DNA of 64,000 bases from Luteimicrobium xylanilyticum (GTDB lineage: Bacteria > Actinomycetota > Actinomycetes > Actinomycetales > Cellulomonadaceae): assembly GCF_009429125.1 (NCBI RefSeq), contig NZ_CP045529.1, forward strand, positions 3,162,001-3,226,000, given 5' to 3'. The position numbers and the translations under genes were made by a program. This document shows, in pieces, positions 1,193-49,405 of the stretch (its first letter is position 1; every line of letters starts with the position of its first letter). The notes under the pieces are model-generated. The model did not search any database, was not told where the DNA came from, and saw nothing but the letters and a program-made list of their open reading frames with translations.

Positions 1193-2179
1193 TCAGGAGT
1201 TGCCGTCGAAGAGCGAGGTGACCGAGCCGTCGTCGAAGACCTCGCGGATCGCGCGCGCGATCACCGGCGCGATCGAGAGGACGGTGAGCTGCCCGAACTG
1301 CTTGTCGGCCGTGATCGGCAGCGTGTCCGTCACGACGACCTCGCGCGCGCCGCACTCCGACAGGCGCTGCGCCGCCGGGTCCGACAGCACGCCGTGCGTC
1401 GCGGCGACGATGACGCTCTTCGCGCCCGCCGCGAGGACGACCTTCACGGCCTCGGCGATCGTGCCGCCCGTGTCGATGAGGTCGTCGACGAGCACGCAGT
1501 CGCGGCCCTCGACGTCGCCGACCACGCGGTTCGCGACCGACTGGTTGGGCCGCGTGATGTCACGCGTCTTGTGGACGAACGCGAGCGGTCCCCCGCCCAG
1601 CTTCGCCGCCCACTGCTCGGCGACGCGGATACGGCCGGCGTCGGGCGAGACGACCGTGACGTTGCCGAGGTCCACACGGCCCCGCACGTAGTCCGTGAGG
1701 ATCGGCATCGCCCACAGGTGGTCGACCGGGCCGTCGAAGAAGCCCTGGGCCTGCGCCGAGTGCAGGTCCACGCTCATGATGCGGTCCGCGCCCGCGGTCT
1801 TGAACAGGTCCGCCATGAGACGGGCCGAGATCGGCTCGCGCCCACGGTGCTTCTTGTCCTGGCGCGCGTACCCGTAGAACGGGACGACGACCGTGATGGT
1901 GCGCGCCGAAGCCCGCTTCGCGGCGTCGACCATGAGCATCTGCTCCATGATCCACTGGTTGATCGGCGCCGTGTGGCTCTGGAGCAGGAACACGTCCGTG
2001 CCGCGCACCGACTCGCCGAACCGCACGTAGATCTCGCCGTTCGCGAAGTCGTACGCCGTCGTCGGGAGCAGGTCGACGCCCAGCTCGCGCGCGACGTCCT
2101 TCGCGAGCTCCGGGTGTGCCCGGCCCGACGCCAGGACGAGCGTCTTGGTGTTCTTCTCGCCGGTGAGCAGCGTGGTCAT
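1193..2179 (-). CDS. prs: ribose-phosphate pyrophosphokinase
   Basis: Makes PRPP from ribose 5-phosphate and ATP, feeding purine, pyrimidine, NAD, His and Trp synthesis in the cytoplasm. At 328 residues it has the normal length for a class I PRPP synthetase. The flexible ATP-binding loop ([14 protein letters not shown]) is seen near residue 110, the metal-binding DLHSAQ motif near 140, and the PRPP-binding signature [12 protein letters not shown] near 230. Its ATG overlaps the glmU stop codon (ATGA), so the two are translationally coupled, as in many actinobacteria. Confidence 0.97.
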
Positions 2180-41883: not shown

Positions 41884-42981
41884 TCAGCCGGCGGCGGCCC
41901 CGGCAACTGCTCCAGCGCGCAGGCGCGGGACCAGCGCGTCCCCGACGCGGACCGTCTCCTGCCGGTAAGGGGTGTCCGACAGCACGAAGTGCGTGACGCC
42001 CAGGTCCGCGTACCGGCGCAGCGCGGCCGCGACGTCGTCGGCGGACCCGACGAGCCACGTCGTTCCCGCTCCCCCGCCGCCGTGGCGGCCCGGGGCGGTG
42101 TACAGGTTCTCGTCGAGGACGTCGCCGCGCTCCGCGAGCTCGAGGAGGCGCCGCTGCCCGACGGCGGTCTGCCGCCGGAAGGCGGGCGTCAGCCGCTCTC
42201 CCTGGCGTTGCGCGAGCTCAGCGACCTTCGCCTCGGCGTCGCGCCACGCCTCCTCGGTGGTGTCCCGCACGAGCGTCGTGACACGCAGCCCGAACTCGAG
42301 CGGGGGCAGGTCGCGGTCGAGGTCCCGGGACAGCTCGCGGAGCCGCGCGATCCTGGCCTCGATCCCGTCGAGCGGCTCACCCCAGAAGAGCTGCACGTCC
42401 GCCTCGGTGGCCGCGACCCGCTCCGCGGCCGGCGACGCGCCCCCGAAGTACAGCCGGGGCGCGCCGCCCGGGAGCCGCGGCACGACCGTCGAGTCGGTGA
42501 CGCGGAAGTGCTCGCCCTCGAACGTCACGCGCTCCTCGGCCCACAGCCGTCGGACCAGCCGCATGAACTCCTTCGTGCGGGCGTACCGCTGCGTCTGGTC
42601 ACCCTCGACGTCGCCGTAGGCTGCGAGGTCGTCCTGACCGCTCACGATGTTGACCAGCAAGCGGCCCCGGCTCAGGCGCTGGAGCGTCGCCGCGGCGCTC
42701 GCGAAGTGCGCGGGCTGCCAGTACCCGGGCCGGATCGCGACGAGCGGGCGGAACGTCGTCGTCAGGGCGGCGACGGCCGTCGCGACCGTGAACGTGTCCG
42801 GTCGGCCCCAGCCCGTGCCGAGGAGCGCGCCCGACCAGCCGTGCGCCTCGGCGGTGCGTGCCAGGTCGACGGTGAAGTCGAGCGTGCCCCAGCCGTCCGC
42901 GCTGAAGTCACCGCGGTGGCCAGGCTCGACGGTGTTGGGGATGTACCACAGGAGCTCTGGCTCGCGCGGGTCGGCGCCCAT
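41884..42981 (-). CDS. LLM-class flavin monooxygenase, SsuD-like alkanesulfonate monooxygenase
   Basis: A 365-residue FMNH2-dependent enzyme. LLWYIPNTVEPGH at the start, GALLGTGWGRPDTFTVATAVAA, LVAIRPGYWQPAHFASAAATL and LLVNIVSGQDDLAAYGD match the SsuD/MsuD branch of the bacterial luciferase family, which cleaves the C-S bond of alkanesulfonates to sulfite and aldehyde. Start at ATG 42981, just after the stop of the upstream gene. It is the last gene of the organosulfur operon. The name ssuD is probable but not proven against close relatives. Confidence 0.88.
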   Translation of the reverse strand: MGADPREPELLWYIPNTVEPGHRGDFSADGWGTLDFTVDLARTAEAHGWSGALLGTGWGRPDTFTVATAVAALTTTFRPLVAIRPGYWQPAHFASAAATLQRLSRGRLLVNIVSGQDDLAAYGDVEGDQTQRYARTKEFMRLVRRLWAEERVTFEGEHFRVTDSTVVPRLPGGAPRLYFGGASPAAERVAATEADVQLFWGEPLDGIEARIARLRELSRDLDRDLPPLEFGLRVTTLVRDTTEEAWRDAEAKVAELAQRQGERLTPAFRRQTAVGQRRLLELAERGDVLDENLYTAPGRHGGGGAGTTWLVGSADDVAAALRRYADLGVTHFVLSDTPYRQETVRVGDALVPRLRAGAVAGAAAG

Positions 42982-42982
42982 C

Positions 42983-44356
42983 TCAGGCGACCCCCGCCGT
43001 GACCCGGCCCAGCTCGGGGACGCCCGCGCCGTCGTCATGCCGGTTGCGGGGACGCGCGAGACCGTAGTGCTCGCGGAGCGTCGTTCCCTCGTACTCGGTG
43101 CGGAACAGCCCGCGCTCCTGGAGGATCGGCACGACCTGCGACGCGAACGCCTCGAGCCCCGACGGCAGCACCGCCGGCATGATGTTGAAGCCGTCGGCCG
43201 CGCCGTTCTCGAAGTAGTGCTGGATCGTGTCCGCGACCTGCACCGCGGTGCCCGTGAACGTGCGGTGGCCGCGCCCGCCGCCGAGCTTCCCGATCAGCTC
43301 GCGCACCGTGAGGCGGTCGCGTCGGGCCCAGTCCACGATGAGCGTGCGGCGGCTCTTCGCGCCCTCGATCTCGTCCTCGTCGGGCAGGTCGAGCGGGAGG
43401 GGTTCGTCGAGCGAGAGCCGGTGCGGGTCGACCTTGAGGGTCCGGGCGAGCGTCGTCAGCGCGTACTGCGGGGCGATCAGCCGGTCGAGCTGAGCGTCCA
43501 GCTCGCGCGCCTCGGCCTCGGTCTCGCCGATGACCGGGACGATGCCCGGCAGCACGACGACGCCGTCCGGGTCGCGCCCGACGGCGCCCGCCCGCCGCTT
43601 GAGGTCCGCGTAGAACGCCTGGCTCTCCTCGAGCGTCGGCTGGGCCGTGAAGACGGCCTCGGCCCACCGGGCCGCGAACTCCTTGCCGTCCTCGGACGAC
43701 CCGGCCTGCACGAGCAGCGGGTAGCCTTGCGGGGAACGCGGCACGTTGAGCGGGCCGGCGACGCGGAAGAACTCGCCCTCGTGGCCCGCCGGGCGCACGT
43801 GCGAGCCGAGCGCGTGGACGCCGCTCGCCTTGTCGGCGACGACCGCGTCGTCGGACCAGGAGTCCCAGAGCTTGGTCGCGACGTCGAGGAACTCGTCCGC
43901 GCGCTCGTACCGCGCCCTGTGGAGCGGCTGGTCGTCGAGGCCGAAGTTCCTCGCCGCGCCCTCCCCGGCAGTCGTGACGATGTTCCACCCGGCCCGCCCG
44001 CCCGAGAGGTGGTCGAGCGACGCGAACCTCCGCGCCAGGTTGTACGGCTCGTTGTACGACGTCGACGCGGTCCCGATCAGGCCGATGCGGCTCGTGCTGA
44101 CCGCGAGCGCCGCGAGCAGGACGGTGGGCTCGAGCTTGCCCGACGGGCGCCGGCCGGGGTCGCTCCACAGGACGGGGCTGTCGGCGAGGAAGATCGAGTC
44201 GAACTTGGCGTCCTCGGCCACGCGGGCGAGGTGCTGGTGCGCTGCGAGCGACAGGTTCGACGTCGGGTCGGCGCCGGGCAGGCGCCACGACGCCTCGTGG
44301 TGGCCGGTGTCGTGGAGGAACAGGTTGAAGTGCAGGGTGCGGGGGCGTGCGGGCAT
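42983..44356 (-). CDS. LLM-class flavin monooxygenase, NtaA/SnaA/DszA family
   Basis: A 457-residue FMN-dependent monooxygenase. The N-terminus LHFNLFLHDTGHHEASWRLP, then SIFLADS, NEPYNLARRFASLDHLSGGRAGWNIVTTA and PLLVQAGSSEDGKEFAARWAEAVFT are typical of the nitrilotriacetate/dibenzothiophene-sulfone monooxygenase group. In sulfur operons such enzymes cleave organosulfur compounds like dimethylsulfone or sulfonates. AAGGAG precedes the ATG, 10 bp after ssuB. It needs a flavin reductase, which is not encoded here. Confidence 0.9.
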   Translation of the reverse strand: MPARPRTLHFNLFLHDTGHHEASWRLPGADPTSNLSLAAHQHLARVAEDAKFDSIFLADSPVLWSDPGRRPSGKLEPTVLLAALAVSTSRIGLIGTASTSYNEPYNLARRFASLDHLSGGRAGWNIVTTAGEGAARNFGLDDQPLHRARYERADEFLDVATKLWDSWSDDAVVADKASGVHALGSHVRPAGHEGEFFRVAGPLNVPRSPQGYPLLVQAGSSEDGKEFAARWAEAVFTAQPTLEESQAFYADLKRRAGAVGRDPDGVVVLPGIVPVIGETEAEARELDAQLDRLIAPQYALTTLARTLKVDPHRLSLDEPLPLDLPDEDEIEGAKSRRTLIVDWARRDRLTVRELIGKLGGGRGHRTFTGTAVQVADTIQHYFENGAADGFNIMPAVLPSGLEAFASQVVPILQERGLFRTEYEGTTLREHYGLARPRNRHDDGAGVPELGRVTAGVA

Positions 44357-44366
44357 GGCGGTCTCC

Positions 44367-45170
44367 TTAGGAGGGCGTGGCCGACGAGGCGCGGCGGCGG
44401 CCGGGGGCGATGAAGTCGGCGCCGAGGTGCTCGTGCACCCCGAGGCGTCCGAGGAGGAGGTCGCGGAGCTCCCCGAACCCGGGCGCGGCCGGCGTGCGTT
44501 CGGTGAGCTCGACGCGCACGTCGGTCTGCACGCTCCCGCCGTCGAGGACGACGATCCGGTCCGCGAGGACGATCGCCTCGTCGACGTCGTGGGTCACGAG
44601 CAGGACGGCGGGCCGGTGGACCTCGCAGAGCCGGCGCAGGAGCTCGTGCATCTTGATCCGGGTGAGGGCGTCGAGGGCCCCGAACGGTTCGTCGGCGAGC
44701 AGGAGCTGCGGCTCGCGGACGAGGGACCGGGCCAGCGACGCGCGTTGCGCCTCGCCGCCCGACAGCTCGTTGGGCCATGCCCGTTCGCGTCCGGCGAGGC
44801 CCACCTCGGCGAGGGCGCGGCGTCCGCGCTCGTCGGCGTCGGGGGTGCGCAGGCCGAAGGTGACGTTGTCGAGCAGCTTCCTCCAGGGCAGGAGGCGCGA
44901 GTCCTGGAAGACGACGGACACCGCGACCGGGACCTCGATCTCCCCGTGGCCGTCGACGTCCCGGTCGAGGCCGGCGAGCGCCCGCAGCAGGGTGCTCTTG
45001 CCGGTTCCCGAGCGCCCGAGCACGGCGACGAACTCGCCGGGCGCGACGTCGAGGTCGAGTCCGTGCAGCACCCCGCCGGACCGGTTGAAGCTGCGGTGCA
45101 GGTCCCGGACTCGGACGGCGGGGGCCGCGACGGCCGTGGTCGCGGTCAGCCCTCCAGGGTGCGTCGCCAT
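44367..45170 (-). CDS. ssuB: sulfonate ABC transporter, ATP-binding subunit
   Basis: A 267-residue nitrate/sulfonate/taurine-type ATPase: Walker A GRSGTGKST near residue 52, the Q-loop VFQDSRLLPWRKLLDNVTFG, signature LSGGEAQR, Walker B LLLADEPFGALDALTR and the switch His in LLVTHDVDEA. It starts 25 bp inside the permease gene. SsuB is favoured over TauB because the ssuD-like gene is in the same operon. Confidence 0.92.
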   Translation of the reverse strand: MATHPGGLTATTAVAAPAVRVRDLHRSFNRSGGVLHGLDLDVAPGEFVAVLGRSGTGKSTLLRALAGLDRDVDGHGEIEVPVAVSVVFQDSRLLPWRKLLDNVTFGLRTPDADERGRRALAEVGLAGRERAWPNELSGGEAQRASLARSLVREPQLLLADEPFGALDALTRIKMHELLRRLCEVHRPAVLLVTHDVDEAIVLADRIVVLDGGSVQTDVRVELTERTPAAPGFGELRDLLLGRLGVHEHLGADFIAPGRRRASSATPS

Positions 45171-46015
45171 GACAGCGCCCTCCTCTCGATCAGCCGGACG
45201 GCGGTGTCGGCGAGGAAGCCGAAGACGCCGTAGATGACGAGGCCGACCACGATCACTGAGGTCTGGCCGTACTGCTGGGCGAGGGTCATGACGTGCCCGA
45301 TGCCCGACTCGGAGTTGAACTGCTCGACGACGACGAGCCCGAGGAGCGACACGGTCACCGCGAAGCGCAGCCCGAGCAGGAACCCGGGCAGGGCGCCCGG
45401 GAGGACGACGTGCCGCACGAACTCGACGCGCCCGATGTCGAGGGTCTCCGCAAGCTCCGCGTACCGGCCGTCGATGCCGCGTAGGGCGTTGTGGGTGTTG
45501 ACGTAGATCGGGATCAGCGTGATCAGGGCGATCGTCGTGACCTTCATCGACTCGCCGATGCCGAACCAGGCGACGAACAGCGGGATGAGCGCGAGGGTCG
45601 GGATCGACCGCTTGATCTGGACCGGGCCGTCGATCAGCGCCTCGCCCACCCGGGACAGCCCGGACGCTACCGCGAGGACGACGCCGCCCAGCACCCCGAG
45701 GGTCAGCCCGACGGCGGAACGTCGCAGCGACGTTCCGATGTTGCCGAGGAGGTCGTGGTCGACCCACTGGTTCTGGAACTCCTTGGCGACGTCCCAGGGC
45801 GCGGTCAGAACGGCGGGGCTGACGAAGCCGGCCCACGAGCCGACGGCCCAGATCGCGAGCAGGAGCACCGGTCCGACCCAGAAGGACAGCCGGGTCCGTG
45901 GCCCCGGACCGAGCCGGCGCCGCACGACGCGCACGTCCGGGTGGACGCCGGCTGCGGTCGGCGACGGGATCGCGGGCGCGAGGTCGGCCCGGGTCGCGGC
46001 GGTCGCGGCGGTCAC
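45146..46015 (-). CDS. ssuC: sulfonate ABC transporter, permease subunit
   Basis: A 289-residue permease with about six membrane segments and the EAA-loop ELAETLDIGRVEFVRHVVLPGALPGFLLGLR, which contacts the ATPase. Start GTG 46015 overlaps the ssuA stop (GTGA). Confidence 0.92.
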   Translation of the reverse strand: MTAATAATRADLAPAIPSPTAAGVHPDVRVVRRRLGPGPRTRLSFWVGPVLLLAIWAVGSWAGFVSPAVLTAPWDVAKEFQNQWVDHDLLGNIGTSLRRSAVGLTLGVLGGVVLAVASGLSRVGEALIDGPVQIKRSIPTLALIPLFVAWFGIGESMKVTTIALITLIPIYVNTHNALRGIDGRYAELAETLDIGRVEFVRHVVLPGALPGFLLGLRFAVTVSLLGLVVVEQFNSESGIGHVMTLAQQYGQTSVIVVGLVIYGVFGFLADTAVRLIERRALSWRRTLEG

Positions 46016-47127
46016 GACGCGTCACCCGTCACGACGGCGGAGCCTGCGGCGGCCGCCTCGACTGCGGCGAAGCGCGTGTCGACGACCGTGTGGACGTCGA
46101 ACTTCGGGTTGTCCTGCTCGGAGGCGAGCAGGTCGGCTGTCGCCTGCAGCCGTTCCACGGCGGCGTCCCACGTCTTCGGGATCCCCTTCGTGCCGGCGGC
46201 CTCGACCGCGGCGGCCGCGTCGGCGGCGTTCAGGCCCTGGTTCTTGACGTAGTAGGCCTGCTCCCACTCCTCGGGGTGGTCGTTCTGCCACAGGAGCGCC
46301 TTGGTCCGTGCGGCCACGTAGACCCGGAGGGCCGCGGCCTTGGCGGGATCCTTGACGGCCTTCGTGAGGCAGTAGACCGTGGAGGCGTCGTCGCGGATGC
46401 CCGTGTCGATCGCCGTCGCGCCGGGGTACTGGCTCAGGTAGGCGCTCTGGATCGTGGCTCTGCCGAGGGGGGCGACGTCGACCGCGCCGCTACCGAGCGC
46501 CTGCGCGTAGGTGCTTGCGGTGCTGGGCAGCTCGACGAGCTTGACGTCGCTCTTCGTCAGCCCCGCCTTCTGCAGGACGCGCAGCACGAGCGCGCCCTGA
46601 GCCTGCCCCGCCGAGTACGCGATCTTCTTGCCCTTGAGGTCGGCGAGGGTCGTGACGTGCGCACCCGGCGCCACGCCGAGCTGGTAGATCGGGTGCTCGA
46701 GCGGGTCGACCGTCACCGACTGGAAGACGATCCGGGTCGACGTCCCGGTCCAGTGGGCGAACAGCGAGGGGATGTCGGCGACCGAGCTGCAGTCGAGCTT
46801 GTCGGCGCGGAACGCCTGGATGCTCTGCGGGCCGCCGCTGATGTTGGCCCACTGGACCTTGACGCCGGCGTCGCTGATCTCCTTGTCGAGCCCGGAGGCC
46901 TGGAGCGCGACCTGGGTCGTCGGGTCGCCGATGCGGAGGACGGTCCCTCCCGGGACCGTCGTCGGCAGGGGCGCGTCGAGCGCGAGCGCCGAGGCGGAGT
47001 CGCCGCTGCAGGCCGTGAGCCCCGGCACGACGGCGACGAGCGCGGCCGCGAGGACGGCGGCGGCACCGCGGCGGGAGCGCAGCAGGCGGTGGGGGCCGGG
47101 TGGCGGGCGGAGTCGGGCGTGGTTCAT
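46012..47127 (-). CDS. ssuA: sulfonate/aliphatic sulfur ABC transporter, substrate-binding lipoprotein
   Basis: A 371-residue binding protein. The N-terminal signal ends in a lipobox (VVPGLTAC, Cys near residue 40). The mature part is a type II periplasmic-binding fold with GPQSIQAFRADKLDCSSVADIP and KGKKIAYSAGQAQGALVLRVLQKAGL, typical of SsuA. GAGAGGA precedes the ATG. It is the first full gene of an operon of five (ssuA-ssuC-ssuB and two flavin monooxygenases), so expression of all depends on the 330-bp leader upstream, which carries a Cys-rich short reading frame. Confidence 0.9.
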   Translation of the reverse strand: MNHARLRPPPGPHRLLRSRRGAAAVLAAALVAVVPGLTACSGDSASALALDAPLPTTVPGGTVLRIGDPTTQVALQASGLDKEISDAGVKVQWANISGGPQSIQAFRADKLDCSSVADIPSLFAHWTGTSTRIVFQSVTVDPLEHPIYQLGVAPGAHVTTLADLKGKKIAYSAGQAQGALVLRVLQKAGLTKSDVKLVELPSTASTYAQALGSGAVDVAPLGRATIQSAYLSQYPGATAIDTGIRDDASTVYCLTKAVKDPAKAAALRVYVAARTKALLWQNDHPEEWEQAYYVKNQGLNAADAAAAVEAAGTKGIPKTWDAAVERLQATADLLASEQDNPKFDVHTVVDTRFAAVEAAAAGSAVVTGDAS

Positions 47128-47335
47128 GTCGGTCCTCTCGGGAGGCTGGAGGGTCGTGCCGACGACGCCTCCCGGCCGGGCCGGTGAGGCGGGTGCGTCG
47201 TGCGAGGAGGGGGCTGCGCCGTCGGGCGGGCGGGGTGCCTGTGCCGTGTGCGGCGTCCTGGGAAGGAAGGCCGGATGGGCGCCACGAGACCGCGGGAGAT
47301 CGTGCCCGTCGGGTGGGTGGCGCGGGTCGCGTGCG
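47128..47335 (-). promoter_or_regulatory. ssu operon leader between sORF and ssuA
   Basis: About 208 nt between the leader sORF stop and the ssuA ATG. It contains CGGGAGGC/GCCTCCCG arms (47139-47146 and 47167-47174), a possible stem that ends just upstream of the ssuA ribosome site. The sequence is C-rich on the transcribed strand, as in long actinobacterial attenuator leaders. No known riboswitch was recognised. Confidence 0.4.
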
Positions 47336-47404
47336 TCAGCGACAGCGACAACAGCCACGGAGACAGCGGCGCGGCGAGGGTGCCGCGGGTGCGCTCGTGG
47401 TCAT
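47336..47404 (-). CDS. Cys-codon leader peptide (putative sulfur attenuator)
   Basis: A 22-codon frame that ends CLRGCCRCR-stop. Four of the last nine codons are Cys and all four are TGT, the codon almost never used for Cys in the surrounding genes. It starts with ATG and sits upstream of the ssu operon on the same strand. Cys-rich leader ORFs upstream of sulfur genes, where slow translation at Cys codons signals low cysteine, are known in mycobacteria and other actinobacteria. The coding nature is inferred from codon content and position; it is not overlapped with ssuA as the mycobacterial example is with its downstream gene. Confidence 0.6.
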   Translation of the reverse strand: MTTSAPAAPSPRRCLRGCCRCR

Positions 47405-47457
47405 GCCCTCAGACTGTGGCAGCACGGGCCCCCCTCACAACAATGCAACGAACTGAA
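47405..47457 (-). promoter_or_regulatory. candidate promoter for the ssu leader
   Basis: On the minus strand TTGTGA, 16 bases and CACAGT end 8 bases before the sORF ATG, which would give a nearly leaderless start. Just upstream is an AT-rich patch (TTAATTCAGTTCGTTGCATT) that directly adjoins the ROK gene's stop and may hold an operator. Confidence 0.35.
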
Positions 47458-48729
47458 TTAACGACGAGCGACGCGCAGCGGGGACGCGTACAGCCCTTCG
47501 AGTCCGACGGCGGCCCCCGCGACCGCGAGCGCGTGCCCCGGGAAGCTGGTCCGGTGAACCACGGCGGCCGGGTCGGTGCAGGTCGCGGACGCCCGCGCGA
47601 CGGTGTCGCGCACGAGCTCGAGGGAGCCGGGCACGCGTGAGACCCCGGGCTCGACGACGGTGAGCAGCTCCGGGTCGAACAGGTCGAGCAGGAGCGCCGC
47701 GGCCCGCCCGACGTCGCGGGCTCGCTCGTGCAGCAGCGCGACGGCACCCGCGCGACCGCCGACGGCGGCGTCGACCAGCGCAGGGAAGCCGGAGCCCGGC
47801 GGCACGAGGCCCCGGCCGACGGCGCGGCGCAGCAGCGTCTGCTCGGAGACCGTGGCCTGGAAGCAGCCGCGCCGCCCGCAGGGGCACGGCTCGTCGCTCC
47901 CCTCGACGGGCAGGTGTGCGACGACGCCCGCGGCCGCGTGGGGTCCGGTGTGGACGCCGCCGTCGGTCGCGAAGCCCGCGTCGACGACATTGCCCACGAA
48001 CAGGTTGACCATGCTCGACCGCGCCCGCGCCCGGTGCTCCCCGAAGAGCTGCTCGGCGTGCACAAGGGCCCGCGCGTGCCCGTCGATCCGCACGCGCATC
48101 CCGAGACGCTCCCCGACCACGCGCCCGACGGGGACGTCCCGCCACCCGAGCAGCGGGTGGTCGACGACGGTCCCGGCGTCGGCGTCGACCCAGCCGCCGG
48201 TCGCGAGGCCGACCCCGCCGACGCGCCACCGGTCGGAGTGTGCGGCGAGCAGCTCGCGCAGGTGGTCGGCCAGGTCGCCGAGGACGACGTCCGGGTCGGC
48301 CGACCGGTGCGGGTCCCGGCGCTCGGCGACGACCCGCCCACGCAGGTCGACGATCGCGAGGGTCGTGTGCGGGACGGCGACGTGCGCGCCGACGACGTAC
48401 GCGCCGTCGGGCCGGACCTCGAGCGGGACGTGCGGGCGGCCGACGCCCTTGGGGGGCGCGTGCTCCGGCGCCTCGCGTACCAGGCCACGCTCGACGAGCC
48501 GGCCGACGAGCCCGGTGACGCTCGCCGGCGACAGGTTGGTGAGCCGGGCGACGGTACTCCGGGCGACGGGCCCGTGGTCGAGGACGGCGCGCAGCACCGT
48601 ACCGGCGGTCTGCGAGGTGCGCTCCTGCACGGGTGCGGGTCGCGGCCGGCCGACGGCGGCGAGGGCGGTCGGAACGTCGGCGCGCCGGACGCGCGGGGTG
48701 CTGCGCTCCGGGCTGCGAAGGGTCGGCAT
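47458..48729 (-). CDS. ROK family transcriptional regulator
   Basis: A 423-residue regulator: an N-terminal winged-helix region (RAVLDHGPVARSTVARLTNL, then SPASVTGLVGRLVERGLV) followed by a ROK sugar-kinase-like domain with GGVGLATGGWVDADAGTV and the zinc-binding CPCGRRGCFQATVS motif. ROK repressors usually respond to sugars or their phosphates. It lies upstream of the ssu operon on the same strand, and NagC/XylR-type proteins next to ssu operons are common in actinobacteria, so it may control it. Start ATG 48729. Confidence 0.9.
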   Translation of the reverse strand: MPTLRSPERSTPRVRRADVPTALAAVGRPRPAPVQERTSQTAGTVLRAVLDHGPVARSTVARLTNLSPASVTGLVGRLVERGLVREAPEHAPPKGVGRPHVPLEVRPDGAYVVGAHVAVPHTTLAIVDLRGRVVAERRDPHRSADPDVVLGDLADHLRELLAAHSDRWRVGGVGLATGGWVDADAGTVVDHPLLGWRDVPVGRVVGERLGMRVRIDGHARALVHAEQLFGEHRARARSSMVNLFVGNVVDAGFATDGGVHTGPHAAAGVVAHLPVEGSDEPCPCGRRGCFQATVSEQTLLRRAVGRGLVPPGSGFPALVDAAVGGRAGAVALLHERARDVGRAAALLLDLFDPELLTVVEPGVSRVPGSLELVRDTVARASATCTDPAAVVHRTSFPGHALAVAGAAVGLEGLYASPLRVARR

Positions 48730-48746
48730 GAGGCACGCTAACCAGC

Positions 48747-48763
48747 CGTCCAGCGTCTGGACG
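48747..48763. promoter_or_regulatory. palindrome before the ROK gene
   Basis: CGTCCAG-CGT-CTGGACG has 7-bp perfect arms, 18 bp before the start codon of the ROK gene. A site for autoregulation is inferred. Confidence 0.4.
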
Positions 48764-48970
48764 AGGCCCGGTCCGCGGTGCGGCCGGACGTTTCCCTGCG
48801 GGTGTTGCCGCGGGTTACCGCGTCTCAGCGCGCGCGGTCGCCGTCTCACTCTGTGTGCGCGCGTGTGCGCCCGCCCGGGCGTGGCGCCGCGCGCGACGGC
48901 GCTCCGAAGCGCATCGTGGAAGTGACCCGAGCGTCCCGACGACGGGACCTCGCCGACAGGAGGCACTGCC

Positions 48971-49405
48971 ATGAGCCCCAGGATCGTCAGCTTCGTCGTC
49001 GCAGCGATCGCCTACGGCGTCCTGCTCATCATCGCCAACCTCGTGCTGTCCGGGATGAGGATCGGGTGGCTGTGGGGCATCGTCGCGGTCGCCCTGTTCA
49101 CGGTCCTGATCTCGATCGTCCGGCCGCTCCTCACGAAGTTCCTCACCAAGCACGTGCACGAGTACACGTGGGTGATCGGGATCGCGACCGTGCTCGTGTC
49201 GCTCATCCTCACCGTGATCCTGTCCCCCGAGTCCGGGTTCTCGATCCACGGGTTCTCGACGTGGGTGTGGGCCACGCTCATCGTGTGGGTGGGGACGCTG
49301 ATCTACGACGTCGTCGACGACCGCCTCGTCGCGATGGCGCAGAAGCACGTCGACTCGCGCAGGGCCAAGGGGTCGGGCACGACGTCGGGCGCCGCGTCGG
49401 CCTGA
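48971..49405 (+). CDS. small four-helix membrane protein, annotated as phage-holin family in relatives
   Basis: A 144-residue protein with four hydrophobic segments (FVVAAIAYGVLLIIANLVL, GWLWGIVAVALFTVLISIV, VIGIATVLVSLILTVIL, TWVWATLIVWVGTLIYDVV) and a charged C-terminal tail. The pattern fits the actinobacterial 4-TM 'phage holin family', but there is no endolysin or other phage gene nearby, so a chromosomal membrane function is more likely. AGGAGG precedes the ATG. Confidence 0.7.
   Translation: MSPRIVSFVVAAIAYGVLLIIANLVLSGMRIGWLWGIVAVALFTVLISIVRPLLTKFLTKHVHEYTWVIGIATVLVSLILTVILSPESGFSIHGFSTWVWATLIVWVGTLIYDVVDDRLVAMAQKHVDSRRAKGSGTTSGAASA

Follow-up and report, generated by a model that had tools for sequence, protein, structure and literature searches.

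A putative cysteine-sensing leader peptide in front of a sulfonate-use operon of Luteimicrobium

What does a 22-codon frame with four cysteine (Cys) codons do at the head of a sulfonate-use (ssu) operon? The frame, hereafter the uORF, lies in a 64,000-nucleotide stretch of Luteimicrobium xylanilyticum DNA (the window), from a 4.21-Mb genome congeneric with that of L. album (G001; ssuA identity 92-93%). From its sequence and its recurrence in relatives, we consider it very probable that the uORF is a cysteine-sensing leader peptide and would act as an attenuator of the ssu operon, of the kind published for mycobacteria; its translation and its response to cysteine are inferred. Reading along the minus strand, the leader comes after a ROK-family regulator and before ssuA-, ssuC- and ssuB-like genes, which precede an NtaA/DmoA-family and an SsuD-like monooxygenase, the ssu gene names being those of the best profile matches, all of which fall below the curated cut-offs:

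46012..47127, minus strand: ssuA-like lipoprotein substrate-binding protein (TIGR01728, 6e-28, below the curated cut-off)
45146..46015, minus strand: ssuC-like permease (NF008470, 7e-55, below cut-off)
44367..45233, minus strand: ssuB-like ATPase (NF008420, 1e-63, below cut-off)
42983..44356, minus strand: NtaA/DmoA-family FMN monooxygenase (TIGR03860, 3.4e-165, over cut-off)
41884..43038, minus strand: SsuD-like alkanesulfonate monooxygenase (NF001939, 3e-72, and TIGR03565, 5e-71, below cut-offs)
47458..48972, minus strand: ROK-family regulator upstream of the leader (PF00480, 2e-26; true start inferred at 48729)
47336..47404, minus strand: Cys-rich leader uORF of 22 codons, MTTSAPAAPSPRRCLRGCCRCR-stop (Cys codons 14, 18, 19 and 21, all TGT; kept in L. 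album)
47336..47425, minus strand: alternative 29-codon form of the uORF from a GTG at 47425 (GAGG 7 nt upstream, kept in L. album)

An initial sequence-only reading had given the position, strand and length of the shorter form, its CLRGCCRCR-stop ending and its four TGT codons, and each of these was confirmed, as was a distance of 208 nt between the uORF stop and the ssuA ATG (47127). The same reading had set TGT in the uORF against TGC in its surroundings; indeed, the five operon genes and the ROK gene together hold no TGT and 9 TGC. The in-frame GTG at 47425, with GAGG upstream, competes with the ATG as a possible start codon. With at least four Cys in its last nine codons, the uORF is the sole such frame of 10-60 codons (ATG, GTG or TTG start, both strands) in the whole 64 kb of the window; when the 330-nt leader was dinucleotide-shuffled 5000 times, no such Cys-rich frame appeared. 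The claim that it is the only Cys-dense unit in the leader held for ATG and GTG starts but failed for TTG: a frame at 47401-47448 on the minus strand, LHCCEGGPCCHSLRA, packs 4 Cys into 15 codons, ends in a stop that overlaps the ATG of the uORF (ATGA), and has Cys codons that L. album keeps. We rejected this frame as a second leader, given its TTG start, the lack of a visible Shine-Dalgarno (SD) sequence and its place upstream of the inferred transcription start; a leaderless start would put it outside the transcript, and it is probably untranslated.

Relatives provided a check that had been named beforehand, namely that the Cys codons should be kept while the rest of the leader drifts, and they bore it out, both in L. 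album and in more distant ssuA orthologues. The L. album uORF, MTTSAPAALSPRRCRRGCCRCR, keeps the frame, the stop and the same four TGT codons, and differs at 3 of 69 bases, compared with 54 of 228 fourfold sites in ssuA. Two of its three substitutions are non-synonymous and none alters a Cys, so that beyond the Cys codons there is no sign of protein selection within Luteimicrobium. A third Luteimicrobium genome has no close ssuA (best match 30% identity). For the wider survey we drew ssuA relatives from samples of 79 relatives' genomes and 396 genomes of the order, and scored frames of 9-60 codons with at least three Cys in the last 14 codons, within 700 nt or 1.5 kb upstream of ssuA. Such a uORF precedes five of the six ssuA orthologues at 48-100% identity (G000, which is the window, G001, G028, G035 and G160), the orthologue in G032 being the one without it, a point against the sensor reading; the G035 and G028 uORFs end in SCLHTARQGCRCRRCR and WCLCGCPCRPCCR, that of G160 reads MTTAPHPAAALVLLVRACRSCPATSCR, and they are otherwise unlike in sequence. 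The background, 27 such frames over 363 kb of strand or 0.052 per 700 nt, itself includes leader-bearing loci; against it, five of six has P = 1.9e-6, a count that includes both the window and its sister L. album; leaving out the two Luteimicrobium genomes, three of four orthologues have the uORF (P = 5e-4). No such uORF was found at the five ssuA relatives with 38-39% identity, and among 22 weaker relatives with upstream DNA (excluding L023 and L024, which have 6 and 50 nt of it) two had one, both TTG-started.

The TGT preference noted in the sequence-only reading extends to other leaders. In 12 leaders, a count that leaves out the near-identical one of L. album, 26 of 40 Cys codons are TGT; in gene-like frames taken from the window and from six loci, 22 of 215 are. 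The P value of this difference (Fisher 6e-13) serves only as a guide, because selection of the gene set by GC3 biases it slightly against TGT and several leaders are related. The non-Cys codons of the leaders stay GC3-rich (227 of 251). This bias was unexpected.

We then asked whether the peptide belongs to a catalogued family. It matched none at E <= 10 in NCBIfam, including NF042933, NF042936 and NF042934 (cut-off 27 bits), and the L. album peptide likewise matched none of the NCBIfam leader models at that threshold; Pfam gave no match at E <= 1, DUF2946 included, and the RAPP motif is absent. In the leader region near 47 kb, Rfam returned nothing over its gathering score, the single match being to a miRNA family at 18.2 bits versus 150. 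A literature search (titles, and the abstracts shown) turned up no paper on Cys leaders in front of ssu operons; one may be mentioned in Canestrari et al. 2020 (Mol Microbiol), which reportedly treats the polycysteine leaderless short ORFs of mycobacteria. PMC11550727 makes no mention of cysteine.

The nearest known systems are the mycobacterial ones. Cys-rich uORFs of mycobacteria were first noted by Shell et al. 2015, where the accessible text describes them as leaderless and treats RTGA-coupled frames as a separate class (PMC4633059). The window uORF resembles the mycobacterial polycysteine uORFs in being a short frame with clustered Cys codons near its end, possibly leaderless, that heads a sulfur operon, and in the conservation of the Cys cluster among relatives (five of six orthologues); it differs in its sequence, which matches neither NF042933 nor NF042936, in its lineage, and in preceding an ssu rather than a cysA2 or nirA operon. 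The sequence-only reading had contrasted it with a directly overlapping, translationally coupled design in mycobacteria. That contrast does not hold: as far as the accessible portions of the two papers go, the mycobacterial Cys-rich leaders are uORFs said to act by (translation) attenuation, distinct from the RTGA-coupled frames (PMC13236596, PMC4633059), and the 208-nt gap therefore does not set the Luteimicrobium uORF apart. A further likeness is to the MetL leader of the Streptomyces lividans metNIQ operon, MSTTSDRTPATEATTTPGARCMCRRMCAF, which the accessible part of its description presents as leaderless, with a Cys-containing C-terminus, in front of a sulfur amino-acid transport operon and lacking a typical Rho-independent terminator; its sequence is unlike that of the uORF, and its authors discuss a methionine leader (PMC8079986).

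The following elements lie between the ROK stop and the uORF:

47405..47457, minus strand: AT-richer promoter/operator block, with 4 of 53 bases different in L. album
47411..47416, minus strand: candidate -10 element CAGTCT, which reads CAGGCT in L. album and stands 6 nt ahead of the uORF ATG
47435..47440, minus strand: candidate -35 element TTGTGA, recognised by eye at a distance of 18 nt from CAGTCT

A consensus promoter scan of the leader region found no promoter. The looser motif YANNNT, picked post hoc after inspection of the leaders, stands 6 or 7 nt before the ATG in all five ssu leaders and at 48 of 1692 background ATGs, and the stricter TANNNT in two of the five. This promoter-like spacing suggests that RNA polymerase probably starts at or near the uORF ATG, which would make the uORF leaderless.

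Downstream of the uORF, the stretch that would carry the output step comprises:

47128..47335, minus strand: untranslated spacer of 208 nt, C 50% and G 28% by base composition, a candidate Rho-loading region
47128..47212, minus strand: 3' block ahead of ssuA, containing the ribosome-binding site (RBS) and a G+C-rich hairpin and differing from the aligned L. album sequence by one substitution and two single-base indels
47134..47139, minus strand: SD sequence GAGAGG of ssuA, for which local pairing with CCTC stretches immediately upstream is predicted

We propose that transcription would start at or near the uORF ATG and that a ribosome would translate the uORF at once. With ample Cys-tRNA, this ribosome would pass the TGT cluster and the stop codon and then leave, and on the bare C-rich spacer transcription would be cut off before ssuA, most likely by Rho. 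When cysteine is scarce, the ribosome would wait on the TGT cluster, within nine codons of the stop, where it would cover the start of the exposed RNA or alter its folding, and the ssu operon would be expressed. Provided that the sensor reading is right, we regard the Rho step as having an even chance of being correct, and release of the RBS as less likely.

The sequence-only reading had suggested that the leader may work through alternative structures, which our results do not support as stated. No intrinsic terminator (G+C hairpin and U-tract) of the classical trp-type was found between 47000 and 47700. In folding models, a stall at the Cys codons raised opening of the ssuA RBS from 0.45 to about 0.6 in the window leader and from 0.37 to 0.39-0.53 in G028, with no gain in L. 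album, G035 or G160, that is, in two of the five ssu leaders only. A ribosome parked at the uORF stop opened the RBS of the window leader equally (0.60), so that the effect is not stall-specific, and with a longer 5' end it vanished in the window leader and was practically absent in L. album. These results bear directly on a second output for the same sensor, translation attenuation, in which the ssuA SD would be paired at rest and opened by a stall at the Cys codons. This is the output reported for mycobacterial cysteine genes, in general as unmasking of the SD by a stalled uORF ribosome in the accessible part of PMC13236596, and it would agree with the predicted SD pairing, with the modelled gains in the window leader and G028, and with the near-identity in L. 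album of the 85 nt before ssuA. We nevertheless judge it, although the main rival to Rho, rather unlikely, given the stop-codon result, the three leaders without gain, the loss of the effect with a longer 5' end, and the local nature of the SD pairing, which does not involve the uORF; in the folding of the ssu leaders, pairing between the Cys tract and the SD was not found consistently.

Termination by Rho is favoured because there is no intrinsic terminator, the RBS is not consistently exposed, the spacer is C-rich, a rho gene is present in the genome and control of leaders by Rho is reported in Mycobacterium tuberculosis (PMC12810186, abstract). In all five ssu leaders the spacer is rich in C and poor in G, with a C-excess at the 97.4th-99.9th percentile of same-length windows. 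Among 58 ordinary upstream gaps, which include leader-bearing loci, those with a C-excess as extreme number 1 for the window leader, 0 for G035, 0 for G160, 7 for L. album and 4 for G028, which makes the excess clear in the first three leaders and mild in the last two, the skews of G035, G028 and G160 being taken from rounded values. In the L. album alignment the middle of the spacer carries large insertions. A C-rich, G-poor region after the uORF is what a Rho-dependent attenuator would have, and is suggestive; judged from base composition, a spacer suited to Rho appears at least as good a lead as alternative leader structures.

Could the main control instead lie in the promoter block, with a ROK-family repressor acting on 47405-47457 and the uORF merely incidental? 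The ROK gene adjoins the leader and is codirectional with it, the block is highly conserved, and ROK-like frames, read by eye, also lie upstream of ssuA in Rugosimonospora and Actinoplanes (loci L032, L033 and L035). Such neighbours at several ssu loci suggest a ROK regulator of sulfonate use. As the main control this is improbable, since it leaves unexplained the Cys cluster and its recurrence in relatives whose uORFs are otherwise unlike; promoter control by ROK and attenuation are, moreover, compatible.

A further rival is that the Cys-rich frame arose by chance, from a short CTGTCG repeat in G+C-rich DNA, and was conserved only through its overlap with a promoter. Its C-terminal part is repeat-like (TGTCGCTGTCGC), and a family-wide 20-mer search gave 30 CCRCR-stop matches in 25 of 221 genomes, of which 8 have a start codon within 60 codons and 22 do not, which indicates that the motif also arises by chance; of those 8, we judged 5 leader-like (G000, G001, G026, G045 and G120). 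Across the order the CCRCR-stop pattern occurs in 196 of 396 genomes, and among the 30 loci listed 19 lack an in-frame start codon; of the remaining 11, two (L109 and L135) were inspected. Against chance stand the shuffles, the uniqueness of the frame in the window, the frame and TGT codons kept in L. album, and the three of four orthologues outside the genus with different Cys arrangements, and we hold this explanation to be very improbable. Two other searches were discarded. The pattern TGYTGYNNNTGY was uninformative in the genome itself, where it matched 162 times on the forward and 145 times on the reverse strand and the control more often (754 and 764). A search of 200 family genomes at the DNA level (E <= 10) gave matches in all 200, the hit to L. 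album (5.5e-62) being followed by G045 (5.5e-7), barely ahead of short matches from 4e-6.

Scarcely probable, finally, is a metal- or redox-sensing nascent peptide whose Cys bind copper or are oxidised: the nascent chain would be Cys-dense, and the abstract on the copper-responsive CruR describes a uORF with Cys and Rho-dependent control between uORF and operon (PMC9426467), but CruR is a DUF2946 protein with CXXC, a RAPP arrest motif and a copper signal (PMC9426467), and the sulfur-gene context, the absence of RAPP and of Pfam or NCBIfam matches, the varied Cys spacing in relatives and the TGT bias all point away from it.

A few frames seen in these surveys deserve mention in their own right. 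In another family of the order, MRMCCCRCR-stop occurs near 1490-1518 (plus strand) of locus L109; an SD-like stretch accompanies it, and roughly 45 nt further on lies what appears by eye to be an ABC-transporter ATPase gene. Polycysteine uORFs, MCCVVVPAAAPALLAGACCRCR and MRCVVVPAAAPVTLAGACCRCR, occur in two genomes of another genus (L104:2080-2148 and L139:6320-6388), followed by a gene for a protein of 51-72 aa with no Pfam match over cut-off and then, by eye, a T-box-like leader and ileS.

A catalogued leader that occupies a comparable place before ssu relatives is NF042934 ('putative leader peptide', cis_reg_atten, SALC type). It differs in usually having a single Cys in a (V/I)DxxRxxSALC-like motif, which the Luteimicrobium uORF lacks. 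In a scan of contigs from which L046, a 64-residue match, was dropped, nine of 15 ssuA relatives, these nine from outside the order, have an SALC-type leader upstream on the same strand, and one other is L. album itself; by the pattern used, none was found at four Actinoplanes-type loci and one Advenella locus, two of which have other Cys-rich frames 1.4-2.3 kb upstream. The nine loci speak for the sensor reading, and the five against it. Other genes often intervene between SALC-type leaders and ssuA. Scored against NF042934, the peptides of three loci fell over the cut-off (Streptomyces) or below it (Glycomyces and Actinoallomurus); the leaders at the other loci were recognised by the pattern alone. 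At Glycomyces loci L039-L042 and L045, SALC-type leaders come in pairs upstream of ssuA in four cases and singly in the fifth. Thus cysteine-type leaders before sulfonate operons recur in Actinomycetota, and the Luteimicrobium one is polycysteine and has no NCBIfam or Pfam match.

In the genome that holds the window, NF042934 at E <= 10 gave 11 matches, none over the cut-off. One of these peptides, MLERLFTVRRDVDYRRVASALCR (L101:4395-4466; 20 bits versus a cut-off of 27), precedes a DctA/GltP-type symporter, perhaps an importer of a sulfur compound; only its context supports it, because the same search also matches below the cut-off in 10 of 14 control genomes.

Sulfonate use is not the only setting of such frames. 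One match of the family-wide pattern lies in G120: here a cysteine dioxygenase (CDO) type I gene (PF05995, 2e-17) is preceded by MTRPTSPSHVLPLPVAVTLSAAGATGRGCCRCR, and a search of 121 family genomes with that CDO gave six matches, five of them at 58-99% identity. At each of these five loci (L176-L180) a uORF carries two or more Cys among its last 14 codons, against a background of 0.15 such frames per 600 nt (P = 5e-5), and at three of them it carries three or more; the sixth, CDO-like match (E 6e-4, 34% identity) lies outside this count. SD-like stretches are visible by eye upstream of the CDO uORFs, three of which read SCPACCQ or SCPARCQ. If the dioxygenase is catabolic, induction by scarcity is odd, and this counts against the sensor reading.

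Taken together with the ssu leaders, these loci may tentatively be grouped: the sulfonate-use and cysteine-dioxygenase genes of Luteimicrobium and its relatives could be headed by a class of cysteine leaders that evolves fast and is so far uncatalogued, in which all that is kept would be a Cys cluster near the stop, the rare TGT codon, which would sharpen stalling as charged tRNA-Cys falls, and a C-rich spacer for Rho. The finding would add sulfonate-use operons to those with cysteine-sensing leader peptides, in a lineage whose leaders the tested profile models miss, and suggests that such leaders may be recognisable from their clustered Cys and their preference for TGT, not from their sequence. 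They also offer a naturally occurring series of dissimilar leaders that share one logic and lend themselves to direct tests of the codon-bias and Rho hypotheses.
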